34,765 bases of DNA, from positions 1 to 34,765 of the IMG/VR virus record IMGVR_UViG_3300050343_000050. One strand, written 5' to 3'. A program made the translations under genes and the position numbers. Of the stretch, positions 229 through 34,765 are shown piece by piece. This DNA comes from a virus. Each line of letters begins with the position of its first letter. Position 1 is the first letter of the stretch. The notes under the pieces were generated by a model that searched no databases, was not told the DNA's origin, and worked only from the letters and a program-made list of their open reading frames with translations.

Positions 229-429
229 TTATTTGATACCAGTATAAAGATATTTTCTTGCTTGCTTTATAGTATCAAAATATTCAACCTCGTATAGTGA
301 TGCTACTTTATACACACTATGAATATAAGTAAGCGTTTTATTGTTTCTTGTTTGTGCATATCCGCAATGAAGCGCATAAGTTGTTAATTCATCTTTATGT
401 TTGTTACTTGTATATAGTTTGTTTTTCAT
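229..429 (-). CDS. Small hypothetical protein, left operon
   Basis: A 66-aa basic protein of unknown function and the last gene of the left operon. It has no membrane segment or cysteine motif; the C-terminal half (YEVEYFDTIKQARKYL) looks helical and aromatic-rich. It starts 3 bp after the stop of the upstream gene (433-636), as expected for translational coupling. Its place in a short operon with a host-type promoter suggests an early accessory protein, perhaps acting on the host, but that is inference. Confidence 0.6.
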   Translation of the reverse strand: MKNKLYTSNKHKDELTTYALHCGYAQTRNNKTLTYIHSVYKVASLYEVEYFDTIKQARKYLYTGIK

Positions 430-432
430 ATC

Positions 433-636
433 TTAAAAGGTTATACTATTAAATTGTTTTTTAATACAGCTAAGCGCTTTGAAATTAGTGTACTTATTTC
501 TATGCCTGTACAAATCGTTGGTTAAAATATAGCTTTCAATAGTAGTCTTATCTTTGTTTAATGAATAGCATATAAAGTCTTTATTTGTACTTACTAATTT
601 GAGTCTTAATTTAAAGTTTATTTTTAGTTTGAACAT
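433..636 (-). CDS. Small basic hypothetical protein, left operon
   Basis: A 67-aa protein rich in lysine and aromatic residues (MFKLKINFKLRLKLVS at the N terminus), not recognised. Its C terminus (FKALSCIKKQFNSITF) resembles that of the next gene (DTIKQARKYLYTGIK) in being a short basic helix, so the two may be distant paralogues, though I cannot align them firmly. It lies 11 bp after the gene at 648-1196. Confidence 0.55.
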   Translation of the reverse strand: MFKLKINFKLRLKLVSTNKDFICYSLNKDKTTIESYILTNDLYRHRNKYTNFKALSCIKKQFNSITF

Positions 637-647
637 TGTTATTATTT

Positions 648-1196
648 TTAAATATTATTGTATATAATTTCGTGAATATCTGCAGTAGTAAATTCTATCA
701 CCTCATCTCTATATTCTGATAATGTAAACCACTGGAATAAATATTCCAAAAATATACTACTTTCTTTTTTTACCTCGTTTATTCCCTCGTAAAATGAAGC
801 GAAGCCGTCTCTACTTTTGCTCGACTCGTTTACGTAATTAATAAAGCTATTATTATTTTCAAATTTATTTAATAATGTTAAGTAAATTTCAGGGCTTACA
901 ATAGCTTTAATTTTGTCAGTACTAAAATTGTAATACTTAGGGCTATAAAGACCGTCAAAAGTTATATAATTATTGTCAGTGAATAAATCGAATTCATCGT
1001 TAAACAATTCTAAAATACAGTCAAAAATATGTTTTGACAATTCTAAACGTAAATTAGTATAGTTTATATTTTCGGTTTCTTTTTCTGTTAAGTAACCCTC
1101 TGAAATTTCGCTTTCTAAAATACCATCTATAATTGAATCATAAATTGAGCAATAGAAACCCTCAAAAGGAATATAAAATTTTATTTCTTTATTCAT
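648..1196 (-). CDS. Hypothetical acidic protein, left operon
   Basis: A 182-aa acidic protein, the largest of the left operon, with no recognised domain. It is rich in Glu, Asp and aromatic residues, with helical stretches near residues 20-65 (YDSIIDGILESEISEGYLTE) and 130-180. The start overlaps the end of the upstream gene by 8 bp, supporting co-translation. No signal peptide or membrane segment is seen. Confidence 0.7.
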   Translation of the reverse strand: MNKEIKFYIPFEGFYCSIYDSIIDGILESEISEGYLTEKETENINYTNLRLELSKHIFDCILELFNDEFDLFTDNNYITFDGLYSPKYYNFSTDKIKAIVSPEIYLTLLNKFENNNSFINYVNESSKSRDGFASFYEGINEVKKESSIFLEYLFQWFTLSEYRDEVIEFTTADIHEIIYNNI

Positions 1197-1488
1197 TATC
1201 GTTATTTTTTAAATTATTAATTTTTATAAATTCATCACCCCAATTATCTATGTTGACAATATATTTATCTTTATGCGAAGCCCTGCAAACTATATTTGCC
1301 CCGTTAAATTTTAAAATATTTATTGCCTGCTGTAACATATTTCCAGTTTTATAGCAATAGCTAAAAATCTTCCTTTCTTTTTTATCAACATAATTGTCAG
1401 TTATTTTAATACGTGCGCCTCTGTAATTTGTTGGGCTTAAAAAAGTTACTTCAATAGCTCTGGTGTTTTTTATTTTATAGTGTTCCAT
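1189..1488 (-). CDS. Hypothetical protein, left operon
   Basis: A 99-aa protein of unknown function. The sequence looks like a mixed alpha/beta small domain, with beta-like stretches at AIEVTFLSP and GARIKITDNYV followed by a helix (GNMLQQAINILKF). It begins one base after the stop of the 37-aa gene and overlaps the 182-aa gene by 8 bp. The + strand frame over the same region is a shadow. Confidence 0.65.
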   Translation of the reverse strand: MEHYKIKNTRAIEVTFLSPTNYRGARIKITDNYVDKKERKIFSYCYKTGNMLQQAINILKFNGANIVCRASHKDKYIVNIDNWGDEFIKINNLKNNDNE

Positions 1489-1720: not shown

Positions 1721-1750
1721 CAAATCTACAAAAATTAATTTAATAAACAA
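1721..1750 (-). promoter_or_regulatory. Bacteroidota-type promoter of the left operon
   Basis: On the minus strand TTG (1750-1748), 19 bases and TAGATTTG (1728-1721) match the flavobacterial consensus TTG-N19-TAnnTTTG. It precedes the first small frame by about 45 bp and lies downstream of the terminator at 2087-2118, so it gives the left operon its own transcript. Confidence 0.75.
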
Positions 1751-1974
1751 CAAAAATAAAAAAAAATGTAACAAAAATAAATTTCAATGCTTTACCAATA
1801 TATTACTATGGTATAAATTTGTAGTATAATTTTAACAATTGAACACGTGCATACGTCTACAAAAAATAAATCATATAAAAAAATAATATCGTTGTTTATA
1901 ATGAATCTAAATAAGCTATTTTTAACGAGTCTAAATAATAATAAGCTATCAAGAATCATTCTAAATAACAAAAC
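1751..1974. other. AT-rich non-coding segment with short direct repeats
   Basis: There is no convincing gene here. TCTAAATAA occurs three times, at 1906, 1930 and 1960, and the first two are each followed by AAGCTAT (1913 and 1943). Together with the iteron array that starts at 1975 this looks like a protein-binding or replication region. Frames on both strands are open only because the DNA is AT-rich and repetitive. Confidence 0.55.
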
Positions 1975-2129
1975 ATACCCCCTCATATTAAACATACCCC
2001 CTCATATTAAACATAGGGTATCATATTAAACACCCCTCCATATTAAACGCACCCAATTATATTAAACACACCCCATTATATTAAACAAAAAAAGGGAGAC
2101 AAAATTAATTATCCCCCTTCATATTAAAT
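1975..2129. repeat. Array of seven 19-bp iteron-like units
   Basis: Unit ATACCCCCTCATATTAAAC occurs twice without change (1975-1993, 1994-2012). Degenerate copies follow at 2013-2031, 2032-2048 (17 bp), 2049-2067 and 2068-2086, and a seventh at 2111-2129 lies after a 24-bp insertion. The TATTAAAC end is the most constant part, and the C-rich half varies. The regular pitch, no spacers and a position beside the terminase gene suggest a replication origin, a packaging site, or an operator array. The last unit also forms one arm of the terminator at 2087-2118. Confidence 0.85.
2087..2118 (-). terminator. Terminator after the terminase gene
   Basis: On the minus strand AGGGGGA (2118-2112) pairs with TCTCCCT (2099-2093) in a 7-bp stem containing one G-T pair. 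The loop is 12 nt and a run of seven T follows (2093-2087). It sits 21 bp after the terminase stop and overlaps the seventh iteron unit, so transcription may affect whatever binds the array. Confidence 0.75.
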
Positions 2130-2138
2130 ATTTTATTT

Positions 2139-3350
2139 TTATCTTATAACATAAACTCCAGAGTTTACTCCTTGTACTAAATACATTAATCCGTATCTAA
2201 TAGCATCTATAAAGTGATTAAACTTATCTATTGGAGCTTCTCCCTTATCTTTCCATACATAATTGTTTAGCTCTCTTATTATGCCGTGAGAACCTCTATC
2301 AACTATTATCTCATAATCCTGCATAAGTGCTATACCTGATAATATACTACCTTTCTTCTTTATTGTAGGCTTTATATTAAGACCCAATGTTTTCATCTCT
2401 GATATTAAACGTGGTTCACTATTATCACAAATAATTAAATCCATACCACACTCTCTTTTATTCATACCTGCTATCTCAGATGTGTTTAGATTAGGTTTTC
2501 CGTAGATTTCCTTAACCCAAACCTTTCTTGCGTTCTTATCTACCGAAATCTTCACAAGTGTCGTTAAATCGGCTGAAAATCCAAAATCCTGCCCATAGCA
2601 AGTAAGTTCTGTAGGGATAAAGTCTCCTACTCTCCATTTTCTTATAATAGTACCTTCTGCTTTCTCAAGCCAACCTCCTAATATTTGGTGTTGATACTTA
2701 TCTGGTCTCTTACGTTTCATTTCATATATCCTACCTAAGAATGATTCAGATAAGTTTGTCTTATTATCTTTGTAAGTTGTATGAACATAAGTAACATCTC
2801 CTTTAACCATATTAGATGCTGCCAATACGTTTTCATTTTGGAAAAACCTCTGATATATCCAATGCTCTTTAGTTGTTGGATTAAGTATAAGAATAACTCT
2901 GTTCTGTTTAGTCTGTGAACGTATAGAGAAATCAATCTTATCAAAAACACTTTCATCTACAAGTTCTTCTGCTTCATCAACTACAAATGTAGTTATACCA
3001 TTTAAGGATTTAAGTGCTGCAGTCTGATTACCTGATGATGTTCTAATACCTTTAAATATAATAGAACTACCTGTCTTGAGGTTCATAATCTCATCTTTAG
3101 TTATCCTAAAGTCATCGTGGACTCCCATTAAGTTAATCTTCTCAATAAATTCAGGAATAATAGATGTATGTGCTGAAATCATCGTATAACGAGAGAACAG
3201 TATCTTATGTCCTGATTCATAAGTTAAGTTAAGTAAGAATACATTTATACCAAATGACTTACCACTACCCCTACCTCCTGTAACAACAAAATACCTACTC
3301 TCATTCTTGAAAATAGGTATATATTTCTCGTGTATATTTATATTATTCAT
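2139..3350 (-). CDS. terL: Terminase large subunit
   Basis: This is the ATP-driven DNA packaging motor with a headful or end-cutting nuclease, acting at the portal. The 403-aa protein has Walker A GGRGSGKS at residues 25-32, a Walker B-like VVDEAEE near residue 120, and a C-terminal RNase H-like nuclease with acidic residues in GQDFGFSADLT, in LIICDNSEPR and in the last region (FNHFIDAIRYGL). The length is normal for the Terminase_3/6 group. It overlaps the putative small subunit gene by 8 bp and is followed by a strong terminator. It is far from the portal gene (19538-21304), but shares the late promoter motif through the upstream gene. Confidence 0.93.
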   Translation of the reverse strand: MNNINIHEKYIPIFKNESRYFVVTGGRGSGKSFGINVFLLNLTYESGHKILFSRYTMISAHTSIIPEFIEKINLMGVHDDFRITKDEIMNLKTGSSIIFKGIRTSSGNQTAALKSLNGITTFVVDEAEELVDESVFDKIDFSIRSQTKQNRVILILNPTTKEHWIYQRFFQNENVLAASNMVKGDVTYVHTTYKDNKTNLSESFLGRIYEMKRKRPDKYQHQILGGWLEKAEGTIIRKWRVGDFIPTELTCYGQDFGFSADLTTLVKISVDKNARKVWVKEIYGKPNLNTSEIAGMNKRECGMDLIICDNSEPRLISEMKTLGLNIKPTIKKKGSILSGIALMQDYEIIVDRGSHGIIRELNNYVWKDKGEAPIDKFNHFIDAIRYGLMYLVQGVNSGVYVIR

Positions 3351-3729
3351 CTTTTGGTGTTACGTCTATAATCTTATCTTTAATCTTCTTACCTTCAACG
3401 CTATCTCCAAAGAAATTAATAGTAGGTGCTTGAACTTTATTAGAAACCTCTTCTTTATCATCTCCATAAGCAAAATCCATAAGTAATTTCATATGATTAT
3501 AGCTACCTTCCTCTGCTTTCTTAGCTAAACTCTCAAAAGCATTTACTTCGCTCCCAAATACGTTCTTAATAGCCTTTTTAGCATATTGTTTCTTACGATT
3601 CTTCTTAGCAGTATTCATTGCAGGTTTATTAGACCTCTCTTTATCTGGTACAGGTAGCTTGGAAATAGATTTCTTTCTACTATTCCCTTTTCTACCATCT
3701 GTTGGCTTAATCTCTTGTGAATTACTCAT
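3343..3729 (-). CDS. Putative terminase small subunit
   Basis: A 128-aa protein that would bind the packaging start site and hand DNA to the large subunit. The N-terminal half is very basic (SRKKSISKLPVPDKERSN, then KKNRKKQYAKKAIKNVFG) and the middle is helical (SLAKKAEEGSYNHMKLLMDF). I infer the role from its place directly upstream of terL with an 8-bp overlap and from a general likeness to small proteins in that position in other Bacteroidota phages. The start ATG lies at the very end of the late promoter motif, so its mRNA may have almost no leader. Confidence 0.6.
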   Translation of the reverse strand: MSNSQEIKPTDGRKGNSRKKSISKLPVPDKERSNKPAMNTAKKNRKKQYAKKAIKNVFGSEVNAFESLAKKAEEGSYNHMKLLMDFAYGDDKEEVSNKVQAPTINFFGDSVEGKKIKDKIIDVTPKDE

Positions 3730-4229: not shown

Positions 4230-4991
4230 TTAAAACATTGTTAATTGTGATGTAAATGGTTTTATTCTTTTTTCAGCGTAATCACATTGCTCTTTACTTA
4301 TCTCGCTACCCAAATAACTATGACCATCAATTACACAAGCAACAGCAGTAGTTCCAGTTCCCATAAATGGGTCGTAAATTAAACTATTGTCTTTTGCGTA
4401 AGTAGATATTAATTTTCTAACAAACTCAGTACTAAAAGTAGCTTTGTTTAAATCAGTAGAGGCATCATTGTTTTTAGCAGTTATAAAATTAAATACATTT
4501 TCATAAATAGATTGACCTGTTTCCCTTTTACTTAACTCTTTTTTATTACAGTTAAAAGTGTGAAACTCATCTTTCCTACAAAATACATAAACATACTCAA
4601 CTATTCTTGTCATTTTGTTATGAGATACATTGTTAGGTGTAGCGGAGTTTTTCTTCCACACGATAATATCTGCTAAAGTAAAATTACTTCTCCTAATAAT
4701 ATCAGCTACAACTAAACTCATTAAAGTAGTGTTCTCTGTTCCGTAACTCATATTATAAAGAACAATTCCATCTTTTTTTAACACCTTATTAAATCCTTTA
4801 AATATTTGTAAAGTCCAATCAATATACTCTTCATTACTCATACCATCTTTATACAAGTCATAACCTCTATCTGTTGAATTAGGTCTTATTATATTATATG
4901 GTGGAGAGGTAACAACTAAATCAATAGACTTAGACTCCATTCTATCCATAGTATCTATATTCTTTTCGTTGTATATCTTATTCATAAGCAC
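4230..4991 (-). CDS. Type II-like DNA methyltransferase, beta class
   Basis: Transfers methyl groups from S-adenosylmethionine to DNA, either adenine-N6 or cytosine-N4. The 253-aa protein has catalytic motif IV TSPPYN at residues 28-33 ahead of the AdoMet-binding motif DPFMGTGTT near 207-215, the order of the beta class. TSPPY is common in N4-cytosine enzymes but also occurs in N6-adenine ones, so the base is open. No restriction enzyme gene is adjacent, so it is probably an orphan that protects phage DNA or marks it. ATG at 4991 or 4985 could be the start. It overlaps the 91-aa gene by 14 bp. Confidence 0.88.
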   Translation of the reverse strand: MLMNKIYNEKNIDTMDRMESKSIDLVVTSPPYNIIRPNSTDRGYDLYKDGMSNEEYIDWTLQIFKGFNKVLKKDGIVLYNMSYGTENTTLMSLVVADIIRRSNFTLADIIVWKKNSATPNNVSHNKMTRIVEYVYVFCRKDEFHTFNCNKKELSKRETGQSIYENVFNFITAKNNDASTDLNKATFSTEFVRKLISTYAKDNSLIYDPFMGTGTTAVACVIDGHSYLGSEISKEQCDYAEKRIKPFTSQLTMF

Positions 4992-6354: not shown

Positions 6355-6894
6355 TTAATGTAATTCTAATATAGACTCCCCTTCTATTATTTGACATTCA
6401 TCTTTACTCTTCCAAGACCAAGATTTAACCCTCATAGTAATAAGTTCACGTATCTCATCTCTTCTATCCTCTGGAATAGTGTCTATAAGCAATTCTAAGC
6501 TATCTTTACCTATTTTTAATGAGTTTATATGTAAATTACGTTTAGATTCCTTTAAAGCTCTCTTTTGAGTCTGTTCTATTGTAAAAAACTCTTCAGCCTT
6601 ATCATTAAAGTAAACATTATAAAAATCTCTGAATGATGGGTATGTTTTATAGTAAATACCTATTTTTTGTAGTGCTTGAAATATAGATGCTCTATTTCTT
6701 TTTACACCTCTTGATTTAAACCATTCTGCAATCATTCTATCATTCATATAATTAACATCTCTTAAAATTTTATAGAATAATGTTCTTGTAATCATTATTT
6801 CAGTCTTTCTTGAGTTAGTATTTAAGTCAATACCTGTTAATACTTCAAAATCTCTTGCTAATTCATCTGCTGTTTCTTTCTTGTAATCTATCAT
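6355..6894 (-). CDS. DnaA domain IV-like DNA-binding protein
   Basis: A 179-aa protein. Residues about 28-85 (from SRKTEIMITRTLFYKILRDV to RNRASIFQALQKIG) follow the pattern of the DnaA C-terminal origin-binding domain: an Arg-rich helix, a leucine-rich helix, then a helix-turn-helix ending in R-N-R-A-S-I-x-x-A-x-x-K-I in place of R-D-H-S/T-T-V-x-x-A-x-x-K-I. There is no AAA+ ATPase part. The rest is helical and unrecognised. I infer an origin-binding or regulatory role, perhaps at the repeat region 1906-2129. The call rests on pattern likeness only. Confidence 0.55.
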   Translation of the reverse strand: MIDYKKETADELARDFEVLTGIDLNTNSRKTEIMITRTLFYKILRDVNYMNDRMIAEWFKSRGVKRNRASIFQALQKIGIYYKTYPSFRDFYNVYFNDKAEEFFTIEQTQKRALKESKRNLHINSLKIGKDSLELLIDTIPEDRRDEIRELITMRVKSWSWKSKDECQIIEGESILELH

Positions 6895-8011: not shown

Positions 8012-8043
8012 CAAAACTACAAAACTATTTATATACTTCCAAA
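8012..8043 (-). promoter_or_regulatory. Bacteroidota-type promoter inside the replication operon
   Basis: On the minus strand TTTG (8043-8040), 20 bases and TAGTTTTG (8019-8012) match the host consensus. It overlaps the last codons and stop of the gene at 8025-8519 and lies 23 bp upstream of the 46-aa gene, so it would give the exonuclease group a supply of transcript independent of the sigma factor genes. Confidence 0.7.
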
Positions 8044-8519
8044 TACTTTTTCAATTTATTTACAATTCCTATCATACAGGGTCTACAACTTGTGTTTTTT
8101 TGATTAGTATTAAAAATGTTATTGTGAATAGATATTAGCCTCGCTCTTTGTTGAGATGTGGTTTTACGAGGATTACCTCCTAAGAAATCACTAAGGTAAA
8201 CATAATCTTCTTCTGATATACAATTAACCTTCTTGTAGGTAAATAGCTTATTTAGTTTCTCTTGTCTATCATCACAACCACAATCCTCTCCTGCTATAAA
8301 CTTAACCAGCTTATCTACTCCTGTAGCTTTAGTAATCTTAGCTACTGTATCTCCAATACCTTCAGATTGCTTAGCAACATTATCTTTAAGTGCTTCATAA
8401 TCCTTAGACACCTTAGTCTTATTCCATTCCTTATACTCTCTGTAATCTTTAGACCTCTTGTCTATAGTTTCATAGTACCCTTGCTTTTCTAATTCTAAAT
8501 AATAATTGTCTGGTTTCAT
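8025..8519 (-). CDS. Cys-pair protein partnered with the sigma factor
   Basis: A 164-aa protein: a basic, charged N-terminal helix region (residues 1-50), a segment GIGDTVAKITKATGVDKLVK, then EDCGCDD (Cys80, Cys82), Cys100 and a C-terminal CRPC (Cys145, Cys148). The two cysteine pairs could form one zinc site. Its start overlaps the sigma factor stop by 4 bp (ATGA), so the two are co-translated. I infer a link to the sigma factor, for example as a co-activator, anti-sigma factor or polymerase-binding protein. Nothing in the sequence proves which. A similar protein seems frequent in flavobacterial phages. Confidence 0.65.
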   Translation of the reverse strand: MKPDNYYLELEKQGYYETIDKRSKDYREYKEWNKTKVSKDYEALKDNVAKQSEGIGDTVAKITKATGVDKLVKFIAGEDCGCDDRQEKLNKLFTYKKVNCISEEDYVYLSDFLGGNPRKTTSQQRARLISIHNNIFNTNQKNTSCRPCMIGIVNKLKKYLEVYK

Positions 8520-9046
8520 ATCTTGTCAAAATCTTGGTTAAAATAATCTATTAAATCTTCTGATAAACTTTCTCTTAATATAGCTTTTTGGTTTAGTATA
8601 GAGTTATGTATAGAGGTTAATCCTATCTTAGCTCCTTTAGATATAGCTCGTAAAGATAAGCCTTGTATAAAATACAATTCAAATAACCTCTTATCGTAAA
8701 CAGTCCAATCAGATGTTATATCCTGTACTTGACTCATTATTTTTTCAAAAGCATCATCTTCCTCCACATCATACTGCTTCTCAACAACCTCATCATTCTC
8801 TAATATCTCATAGAAAATACTGTTACGTTTATCTTTTAGATAAGAATAATACAAATTCCTTAATGTAACCCATACAAAGTACCTATTAATATCATCTTTG
8901 TACATAATCCTGCTCTCATCTTTAACAAGTCTATGCATCCTAAGATACATATCCTGAACCAAGTCTTCAGCTACATCTAACTTACATCCTAAATTCACTA
9001 ACATCTTAATCCATAACTCTTGATGAACTGCTAATTTTTCTAACAT
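8516..9046 (-). CDS. Phage RNA polymerase sigma factor (ECF-like)
   Basis: Would direct host RNA polymerase to phage promoters. The 176-aa protein has a sigma region 2 at residues about 5-75, with helices around LDVAEDLVQDMYLRMHRLV and the aromatic patch YFVWVTLRNLYYSYLKDKR. An acidic linker follows (about 80-105), then a region 4 helix-turn-helix at about 118-165 (LFELYFIQGLSLRAISKGAK then IGLTSIHNSI). Length and two-domain layout fit ECF sigma factors. It overlaps its neighbours on both sides (1 bp and 4 bp). The best target candidate is the repeated late motif found at seven sites here. Confidence 0.82.
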   Translation of the reverse strand: MLEKLAVHQELWIKMLVNLGCKLDVAEDLVQDMYLRMHRLVKDESRIMYKDDINRYFVWVTLRNLYYSYLKDKRNSIFYEILENDEVVEKQYDVEEDDAFEKIMSQVQDITSDWTVYDKRLFELYFIQGLSLRAISKGAKIGLTSIHNSILNQKAILRESLSEDLIDYFNQDFDKI

Positions 9047-12979: not shown

Positions 12980-13153
12980 TTAATCTGTTTTTAATAATTC
13001 ATTCTTAACTATATCCTTGTACTGTGTTGGGCAGTCTTTATCTGTTAGTTCAAAGATGTACGTTTCATACGTAGACACCTTAGTCTCTAATTCAAATACT
13101 TTCTTTTGTAATGCCGTAATCTGAGCATTTTTAAAATCTAATAAATCTTTCAT
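12980..13153 (-). CDS. 57-aa coiled-coil-like small protein
   Basis: The frame begins MKDLLDFKNAQITALQKKVF and has heptad-like leucines up to about residue 35, then a short tail with one cysteine. It is the first gene after the promoter at 13182-13213 and ends just before the ERF start. It could be a small regulatory or adaptor protein. Function unknown. Confidence 0.6.
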   Translation of the reverse strand: MKDLLDFKNAQITALQKKVFELETKVSTYETYIFELTDKDCPTQYKDIVKNELLKTD

Positions 13154-14032: not shown

Positions 14033-14488
14033 TCAAACGCAAATAAATTCAGGGTCTTTCAAGTAGTTATCTGTATCAAAGTATATCCACTCATTAGTAA
14101 CTTGGATTCTTTCTATACCATACTGTATTAAACCTCTTATAAACTTTAATCTCTTAATCTTATTAATACACTTAAACTTTATAGACTTGCCAACTCTATG
14201 ACCACTATTATGTGGTATTGCAATCCTATCTCCATAATTCTTACTTACATATCCCTGTAATATAAAACCAGATAATCTTTCTTTTCTAAATATCTCATCT
14301 AATATAAATACAGGTTCACTCTCCATAAAATACTTACCACTACCTAACTTGTCAGGACTATCAAACATACTCCATTTAAGCACTGCTAAACCTTCCTCAT
14401 CCATCTCCTTTGTATAAGTATCTGTATATTCTACTTTATGCAAAGAAAAACTCTCCTTCTTACGATTATGTATCTTCCTCAAAGGCAT
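14033..14488 (-). CDS. M15-peptidase-like protein with lost zinc ligands
   Basis: A 151-aa protein whose second half aligns by eye with the M15 peptidase at 15551-15874. ILDEIFRKERLSGFILQGY matches the FLAKLDEAREYANIPFIINSAY part, SGHRVGKSIKF matches SSHIKGLAVDI, and GIERIQVTNEWIYFDTD matches GFSRIGIADTFIHVDLD. The zinc ligands of the active enzyme are His53, Asp60 and His92; here His97 is kept but the Asp is Lys104 and the last His is Tyr136. It is therefore probably not a peptidase. It may bind cell wall, regulate lysis, or have a structural role. The N-terminal 55 residues are extra. Confidence 0.65.
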   Translation of the reverse strand: MPLRKIHNRKKESFSLHKVEYTDTYTKEMDEEGLAVLKWSMFDSPDKLGSGKYFMESEPVFILDEIFRKERLSGFILQGYVSKNYGDRIAIPHNSGHRVGKSIKFKCINKIKRLKFIRGLIQYGIERIQVTNEWIYFDTDNYLKDPEFICV

Positions 14489-34259: not shown

Positions 34260-34279
34260 TTATTTAGTTATCTTAATAT
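34249..34279 (+). promoter_or_regulatory. Putative late promoter on the + strand, facing a gene-free region
   Basis: ACA (34249-34251) is followed 17 bases later by AGTTATCTTAATAT (34266-34279). It is the same two-part motif as at six leftward sites, but on the opposite strand. The ACA lies within the last codons of the GIY-YIG gene. Downstream there is no open reading frame of note for about 0.5 kb. Confidence 0.6.
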
Positions 34280-34502
34280 ACAGAGTTGTAGTTCTCTCTA
34301 ACCTACCAAACTTTAGTCACAATCGTAAGGCTATTGGTTCAGATACATTAAGTCTCCTTAGTAATTGCATCTATAACCTTTATAATCTTCGTAGCACCCA
34401 ATAGATATTCAAACTAACGAGCATAACCAGTTATATCAGTTAGCTAACTACTAACATACATTAAGATTATAGGAGGGTGCATATCTAACCATCAAGCATA
34501 TA

Positions 34503-34640
34503 ATTATATTTTCAAAATTAAATTACCTATTTATAACAAAAAGATATTAGACTATAATCAGTATTGGACTAATTATTATATTTTCAAAATTGATATGTCA
34601 GTTTTAAACGAAAAGATATTTGACTATTCGTTGAATTCAT
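34503..34640. repeat. Two imperfect tandem copies of a 70-bp unit
   Basis: Each copy has ATTATATTTTCAAAATT, then 19 variable bases, then AAAAGATATT(A/T)GACTAT. The first copy starts at 34503 and the second at 34575 or nearby; the spacing within copies is identical. The variable middle of equal length shows that the two blocks are kept at fixed distance. It lies inside the gene-free region and may be two similar RNA domains or two protein-binding sites. Confidence 0.7.
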
Positions 34641-34651
34641 AGAAGTGACAT

Positions 34652-34765
34652 ACTACACAATTTAAATCTCCGTTCTACGCCATTATCTCCCTTCAGGTGG
34701 TATGCTAGTATCAAATGAATATTTGAGTCGCTTAAACGTGCTTAAATTGAGTTTTGAATATCGGT
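34652..34765. repeat. Right copy of 114-bp terminal direct repeat
   Basis: It is identical to 1-114. In the circular molecule the two are one sequence, and the joined region (34260 to 170) is about 0.56 kb without a protein gene. Confidence 0.95.

Follow-up and report, generated by a model that had tools for sequence, protein, structure and literature searches.

The array of short direct repeats beside terL, the gene of the terminase large subunit, in the window (a virus record from IMG/VR, 34,765 bp long, analysed over its whole length and, with its 114-bp terminal repeat, most simply a circular assembly) is real, and comparison of related sequences shows that it is a conserved part of the control region ahead of the early genes in more than 100 uncultivated relatives. 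The array, whose behaviour is not that of a standard replication origin, probably binds a putative regulatory protein; its reading as a multi-site operator within the early-gene control region is tentative, with a chance a little short of even.

Organization of the array

In the window terL is the final gene of a long minus-strand operon, and the array starts 10 nt past its stop codon (terL sense). Six head-to-tail units (1975-2086) are accompanied by a detached unit (2111-2129), with pitches, in window order, of 19, 19, 17, 19 and 19 bp and then 43 bp to the detached unit; these positions bear out the six contiguous units, one detached unit and pitch of 19 bp (17 once) of the first-pass annotation. 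The unit consensus in terL sense is YGTTTAAYATRANGGGG; exact ATATTAAAC occurs eight times on the plus strand of the window, six of them in the array, and the real unit pattern gives five matches against none for a reversed-pattern control. One unit (2013-2031; ATAGGGTATCATATTAAAC), overlooked in the first-pass annotation, keeps the core unchanged while its GC slot is reverse-complemented (CCC for GGG). The units are direct repeats in tandem, of a size within the range of about 17-22 bp usual for iterons; the structure of a CRISPR array is absent, the units being 17-19 bp long and devoid of spacers. The annotation had further supposed that proteins bound to successive units would lie on nearly the same face of the DNA, which does not hold: 19 bp correspond to 1.81 helical turns, i.e. 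a rotation of about 70 degrees per successive site, and the 25 distinct pitches found over the arrays of the relatives (16-58 bp) are without helical phase (R=0.14, p about 0.6), so that helical phasing of the units was rejected.

The terminator stem said to use the last unit does so; indeed, the stem (2120-2091, minus strand) takes in the detached unit, ATTTAATATGAAGGGGG, whose G-run forms its 5' arm (terminator-like sites: two seen, 0.1 expected). In relatives, the detached unit is kept 13 nt past the terL stop codon.

Table 1. Features of the array, of its neighbouring genes and of the control module in the window
Feature	Position	Strand	Evidence or remark
Early operon of small genes, downstream of module	229..1488	-	ORFs
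SigmaABfr-type promoter of early operon, TTG-N19-TAGATTTG	1721..1750	-	consensus from PMC7366714
Divergent -7-like element TAAATTTG, directed at array	1814..1821	+	[TC]AnnTTTG pattern; -33 poor here
Alternating purine-pyrimidine GC box ACACGTGCATACGT, 14 nt	1843..1856		sole such run in window
Three imperfect palindromes TTATTTAGA-N5-TCTAAATAA	1892-1914, 1916-1938, 1946-1968		pattern search
Array unit, G type (GAGGGGGTAT)	1975..1993	-	exact match
Array unit, G type (GAGGGGGTAT)	1994..2012	-	exact match
Array unit, C type (GATACCCTAT), core kept, GC slot inverted	2013..2031	-	sequence
8-bp hairpin of neighbouring G-type and C-type units, core in loop	2015..2036	-	folding
Array unit, G type (GGAGGGGTG), then 17-bp pitch	2030..2048	-	sequence
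Array unit, G type (AATTGGGTGC)	2049..2067	-	sequence
Array unit, G type (AATGGGGTGT)	2068..2086	-	sequence
Intrinsic terminator of terL	2091..2120	-	12-pair stem then T run; fold
Detached unit (T unit)	2111..2129	-	terL sense ATTTAATATGAAGGGGGAT
terL, terminase large subunit (Terminase_3)	2139..3350	-	Pfam PF04466 E=3.8e-33; PHROG terminase

The control module

In terL sense the array is followed by the palindromes, the GC box and the promoter of the early operon, a divergent -7 element being present as well (Table 1). The genes of this operon (229-1488) gave no informative family matches, and its early timing is inferred from gene type and position. The repeats TCTAAATAA, noticed three times in the first-pass annotation, are present at 1906, 1930 and 1960, and are really single arms, the better ones, of three imperfect palindromes; with up to three mismatches the palindrome pattern has four matches in the window, three of them at 1892-1968, against 0.39 expected. 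The early promoter resembles in motif and spacing the sigmaABfr promoters of Bacteroidota, whose consensus is TTG / TAnnTTTG with 18-21 bp spacing (PMC7366714); it differs in that it alone in the window has the array, the palindromes and the purine-pyrimidine box, the remaining window promoters being without an array.

The same order recurs in relatives. Among 85 non-redundant post-array segments, a palindrome follows 68% of the arrays (4.5% in shuffles), a GC box 78% (11% in shuffles) and a TTG-N18..21-TAnnTTTG promoter 65% (5% in shuffles), while an opposite-strand [TC]AnnTTTG stands immediately upstream of 59% of the boxes, compared with 5% in shuffled sequence. The GC box, which is Z-DNA-prone and lies about 20 nt downstream of the divergent -7 element, is conserved in relatives in its type and not in its sequence (ACGTATGCACGTGT, CGCGTGCACGCG, TGTACGCGCGTACAT). 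In some control regions (L014, at about 4655-4735; also L009, L016, L018, L021 and L030) the palindromes are followed by a structured insert beginning with GGGTAGGACGGAGTCTACTCTTTCGAACCTCTCAG, which folds at -22.7 kcal/mol and has no Rfam or tRNA match. A separate long non-coding stretch of the window, between convergent genes (34260-34765 and 1-228), carries two AAAAGATATT-GACTAT repeats and contains the terminal overlap of the record.

Distribution among uncultivated phages

A search with TerL retrieved 80 contigs, and scanning the DNA of 2.9 million IMG/VR contigs for the tandem unit by itself returned 118 and 19 stretches; nearly all loci of the unit-only scans trace to the region downstream of the same terL, in the same orientation. 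At least three units, all co-oriented with terL, are present in 104 of 115 non-redundant terL-downstream regions (IMG/VR), a count drawn from metagenomic fragments that share ancestry and in which redundancy was lowered and is still present. The motif derived from 261 distinct TTTAA-class units is again the consensus given above; its core hardly varies and its spacer is loose, which is the pattern that a recognised site should show. A divergent clade has CTTAAACATAGTAGGGG or a CCCC variant, and the C-type unit is found in 57 of the 104 arrays. The pitches in relatives are overwhelmingly odd (17, 19, 21, 23, 25, 27, 29, 31, 33, 43, 45), a bias which probably reflects shared ancestry. Small open reading frames over the units (MFNM..., MMGYV*) were rejected as an explanation, since they are not kept in the TTAAACATAG clade.

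A search of 84,980 prokaryote genomes for a host or prophage turned up neither an array nor a TerL relative, and a non-exhaustive literature search brought up no described equivalent of the module. The closest cultured TerL found is that of Nonlabens phage P12024L (51%), which has many structural genes as well as the sigma-like and TerL genes in common with the window; its genome differs in being without a comparable tandem array and in having its early-type genes elsewhere. Promoter type and nearest cultured phages point to Bacteroidota as the host phylum.

In many genomes a second array lies 1-2.3 kb further on, and a second module accompanies 17 of the 104 arrays; in genomes of the L007 type each of the two modules stands ahead of its own small-gene operon, and in such two-array genomes palindromes are found only with the second, downstream module. 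The detached and first units of the window array resemble module 1 of L007 and the others module 2, so that the single array of the window may be a fusion of two modules, as via unequal recombination between units. Inserts of 100-900 bp interrupt 36 of the 104 arrays, and several of them contain an open frame, which may run in either direction; arrays would be hot spots for the gain and loss of early-gene cassettes.

Units also occur away from early promoters, as pairs at endolysin/lipoprotein junctions (L098, L099, L122, L126, L158, L168) and at structural-gene terminators (L092, L219, L220). In L217 (G005:9500-10100), L098, L122, L126, L158 and L168 the junction has two units, and a unit provides the lipoprotein start MFNIRG; in L219, L220 (G007), L092 and L123 a unit-like TTTAATATNAAGGGGG stands right before or inside structural-gene terminators, 7-15 nt past the stop codon.

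Function of the array

Replication origin, packaging start and operator had all been put forward for the array; the operator is the best supported, the arrays heading early-promoter modules that can be duplicated one per operon, while the origin is weakened and the packaging start is left with the adjacency to terL. The repeated sites are tied to promoters of early operons, and operator function would be exerted through the putative regulatory protein, phage- or host-derived, which would recognise the core TGTTTAAYAT of each unit regardless of helical face. Placed between the end of the long operon (terL) and the early operon, the bound array would act jointly with the palindromes and the purine-pyrimidine box to set the output of the early and divergent promoters; the first unit also serves as an arm of the terL terminator, and recombination between units would insert, delete or duplicate early-gene cassettes. 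Counted against an operator are the distance of about 225-350 bp between array and early promoter, the inversion of the G/C slot, for which base-specific protein contact does not readily account, and the unit pairs at lipoprotein junctions and structural-gene terminators.

In multi-operator early control regions, such as oR/oL of lambda, several operator copies lie by divergent promoters between transcription units. The present module is alike in these respects; it differs in that up to seven sites share one orientation, the promoter is 225-350 bp away, GC slots are inverted and one unit is made into a terminator. Candidate ligands of universal occurrence are the sigma-like protein (8516-9046), the TerS-like protein (3343-3729) and the products of 8025-8519 and 14033-14488; DnaA-like, ParB-like and methyltransferase proteins were discarded as general ligands, being sporadic among array-bearing genomes. 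The sigma-like protein, found across the array-bearing long contigs and in P12024L, might also serve in late or middle transcription.

An origin in which the repeats are iterons bound by a phage initiator, the palindromes are auxiliary and the A+T-rich stretch unwinds is rather unlikely. Direct repeats combined with palindromes and with an A+T-rich stretch do recall the layout of ori-lambda and of iteron plasmids, and the restriction of palindromes to the downstream module of two-array genomes would fit; the reading is weakened by the lack of helical phasing, by the duplication of the array in many genomes and by the lack of an initiator gene travelling with the arrays. In plasmids, iterons go with a rep gene. 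The iteron origins and control arrays of plasmids are similar in consisting of direct repeats, about 19 bp long and placed head to tail, but their iterons are generally helically phased (PMC5043065), and neither phasing nor rep linkage is found at the array. Ori-lambda, with iterons bound by O, is similar in having 4-6 repeats of like length next to an A+T-rich stretch (PMC7466680); its iterons, however, are inverted repeats within the initiator gene, whereas the repeats of the window are asymmetric, direct and intergenic, lying by terL, with no initiator, a variable pitch and frequent duplication. GC skew in the window just tracks the coding strand and speaks neither for nor against an origin, and no DnaA box (TTATNCACA) is present in 1489-2138, the genome-wide count being that of chance.

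The suggestion that a DnaA-domain-IV-like protein is the ligand stands as far as the fold is concerned. By sequence, the 179-aa protein (6355-6894) matches nothing significantly in Pfam, PHROGs or PDB; its fold is that of DnaA domain IV, without an AAA+ domain (AlphaFold mean pLDDT 79; Foldseek top matches 3pvp, 8btg and 1j1v, probability 1.00, E about 0.1), and the reality of this fold speaks for an origin. Its gene, the only initiator-like one recognised, does not occur in six long contigs that carry arrays (G001, G002, G003, G004, G007 and G008), three of which (G004, G007 and G008) have terminal overlaps like that of the window, as circular assemblies; the protein is therefore not a general ligand, though it may have binding sites elsewhere in this phage.

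Less probable than an origin is an RNA-level element, i.e. a transcribed array forming alternative G-type/C-type hairpins that serve as attenuator, terminator or processing platform. A C-type unit has the G-type slot in reverse complement, each of 69 sampled pairs of adjacent G and C units can form a hairpin that has the core as its loop (-4 to -18 kcal/mol), one pair (L033) has GGGC/GCCC in place of GGGT/ACCC, and true terminators have the same loop and build (L092, L123, L220). This makes an RNA role a rival, not the leading reading, because 47 of the 104 arrays are without a C-type unit and changes in pairing are mostly absorbed by G-U pairs rather than compensated; moreover, the folding of the array is only mildly stable (z -1.9), mainly due to the terminator, and Rfam gave nothing for the region at gathering score, with weak chance matches only. 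A two-layer switch, in which flippable GC slots would form hairpins or cruciforms coupled to the Z-DNA-prone box between divergent promoters, is slightly more doubtful again; if true, DNA or RNA structure or supercoiling, beyond protein occupancy, would set early transcription.

To the same low degree, the array might play no part in regulation and be a recombinational linker or a selfish short repeat, kept for the exchange of early-gene cassettes, as the inserts, the second modules, the mixture of L007-like units in the window and the unit pairs at other gene junctions would suggest; its constant orientation, near-invariant core and fixed palindrome-box-promoter order, kept across TerL divergence to about 64%, speak for a function. 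Least probable is a pac/cos packaging site recognised by the small terminase: the array lies directly after terL, the TerS-like gene is found in all eight of the long terL-bearing array contigs compared, and circular assemblies broken at unrelated places fit headful packaging, but second arrays are found as far as 2.3 kb away from terL, ahead of promoters, and 8025-8519, 12980-13153 and the sigma-like gene are nearly as universal as the TerS-like one.

Implications

The operator reading, in which the array belongs to the control of early genes, carries a caution, namely that phage repeat arrays should not all be called origins. The array, palindromes, GC box and promoter would constitute a cis-regulatory module common to a large group of uncultivated phages, whose hosts would be Bacteroidota; arrays of the consensus unit after terL, followed by palindrome, GC box and promoter, provide a signature by which it can be searched for, and the module would mark sites of early-gene cassette exchange.
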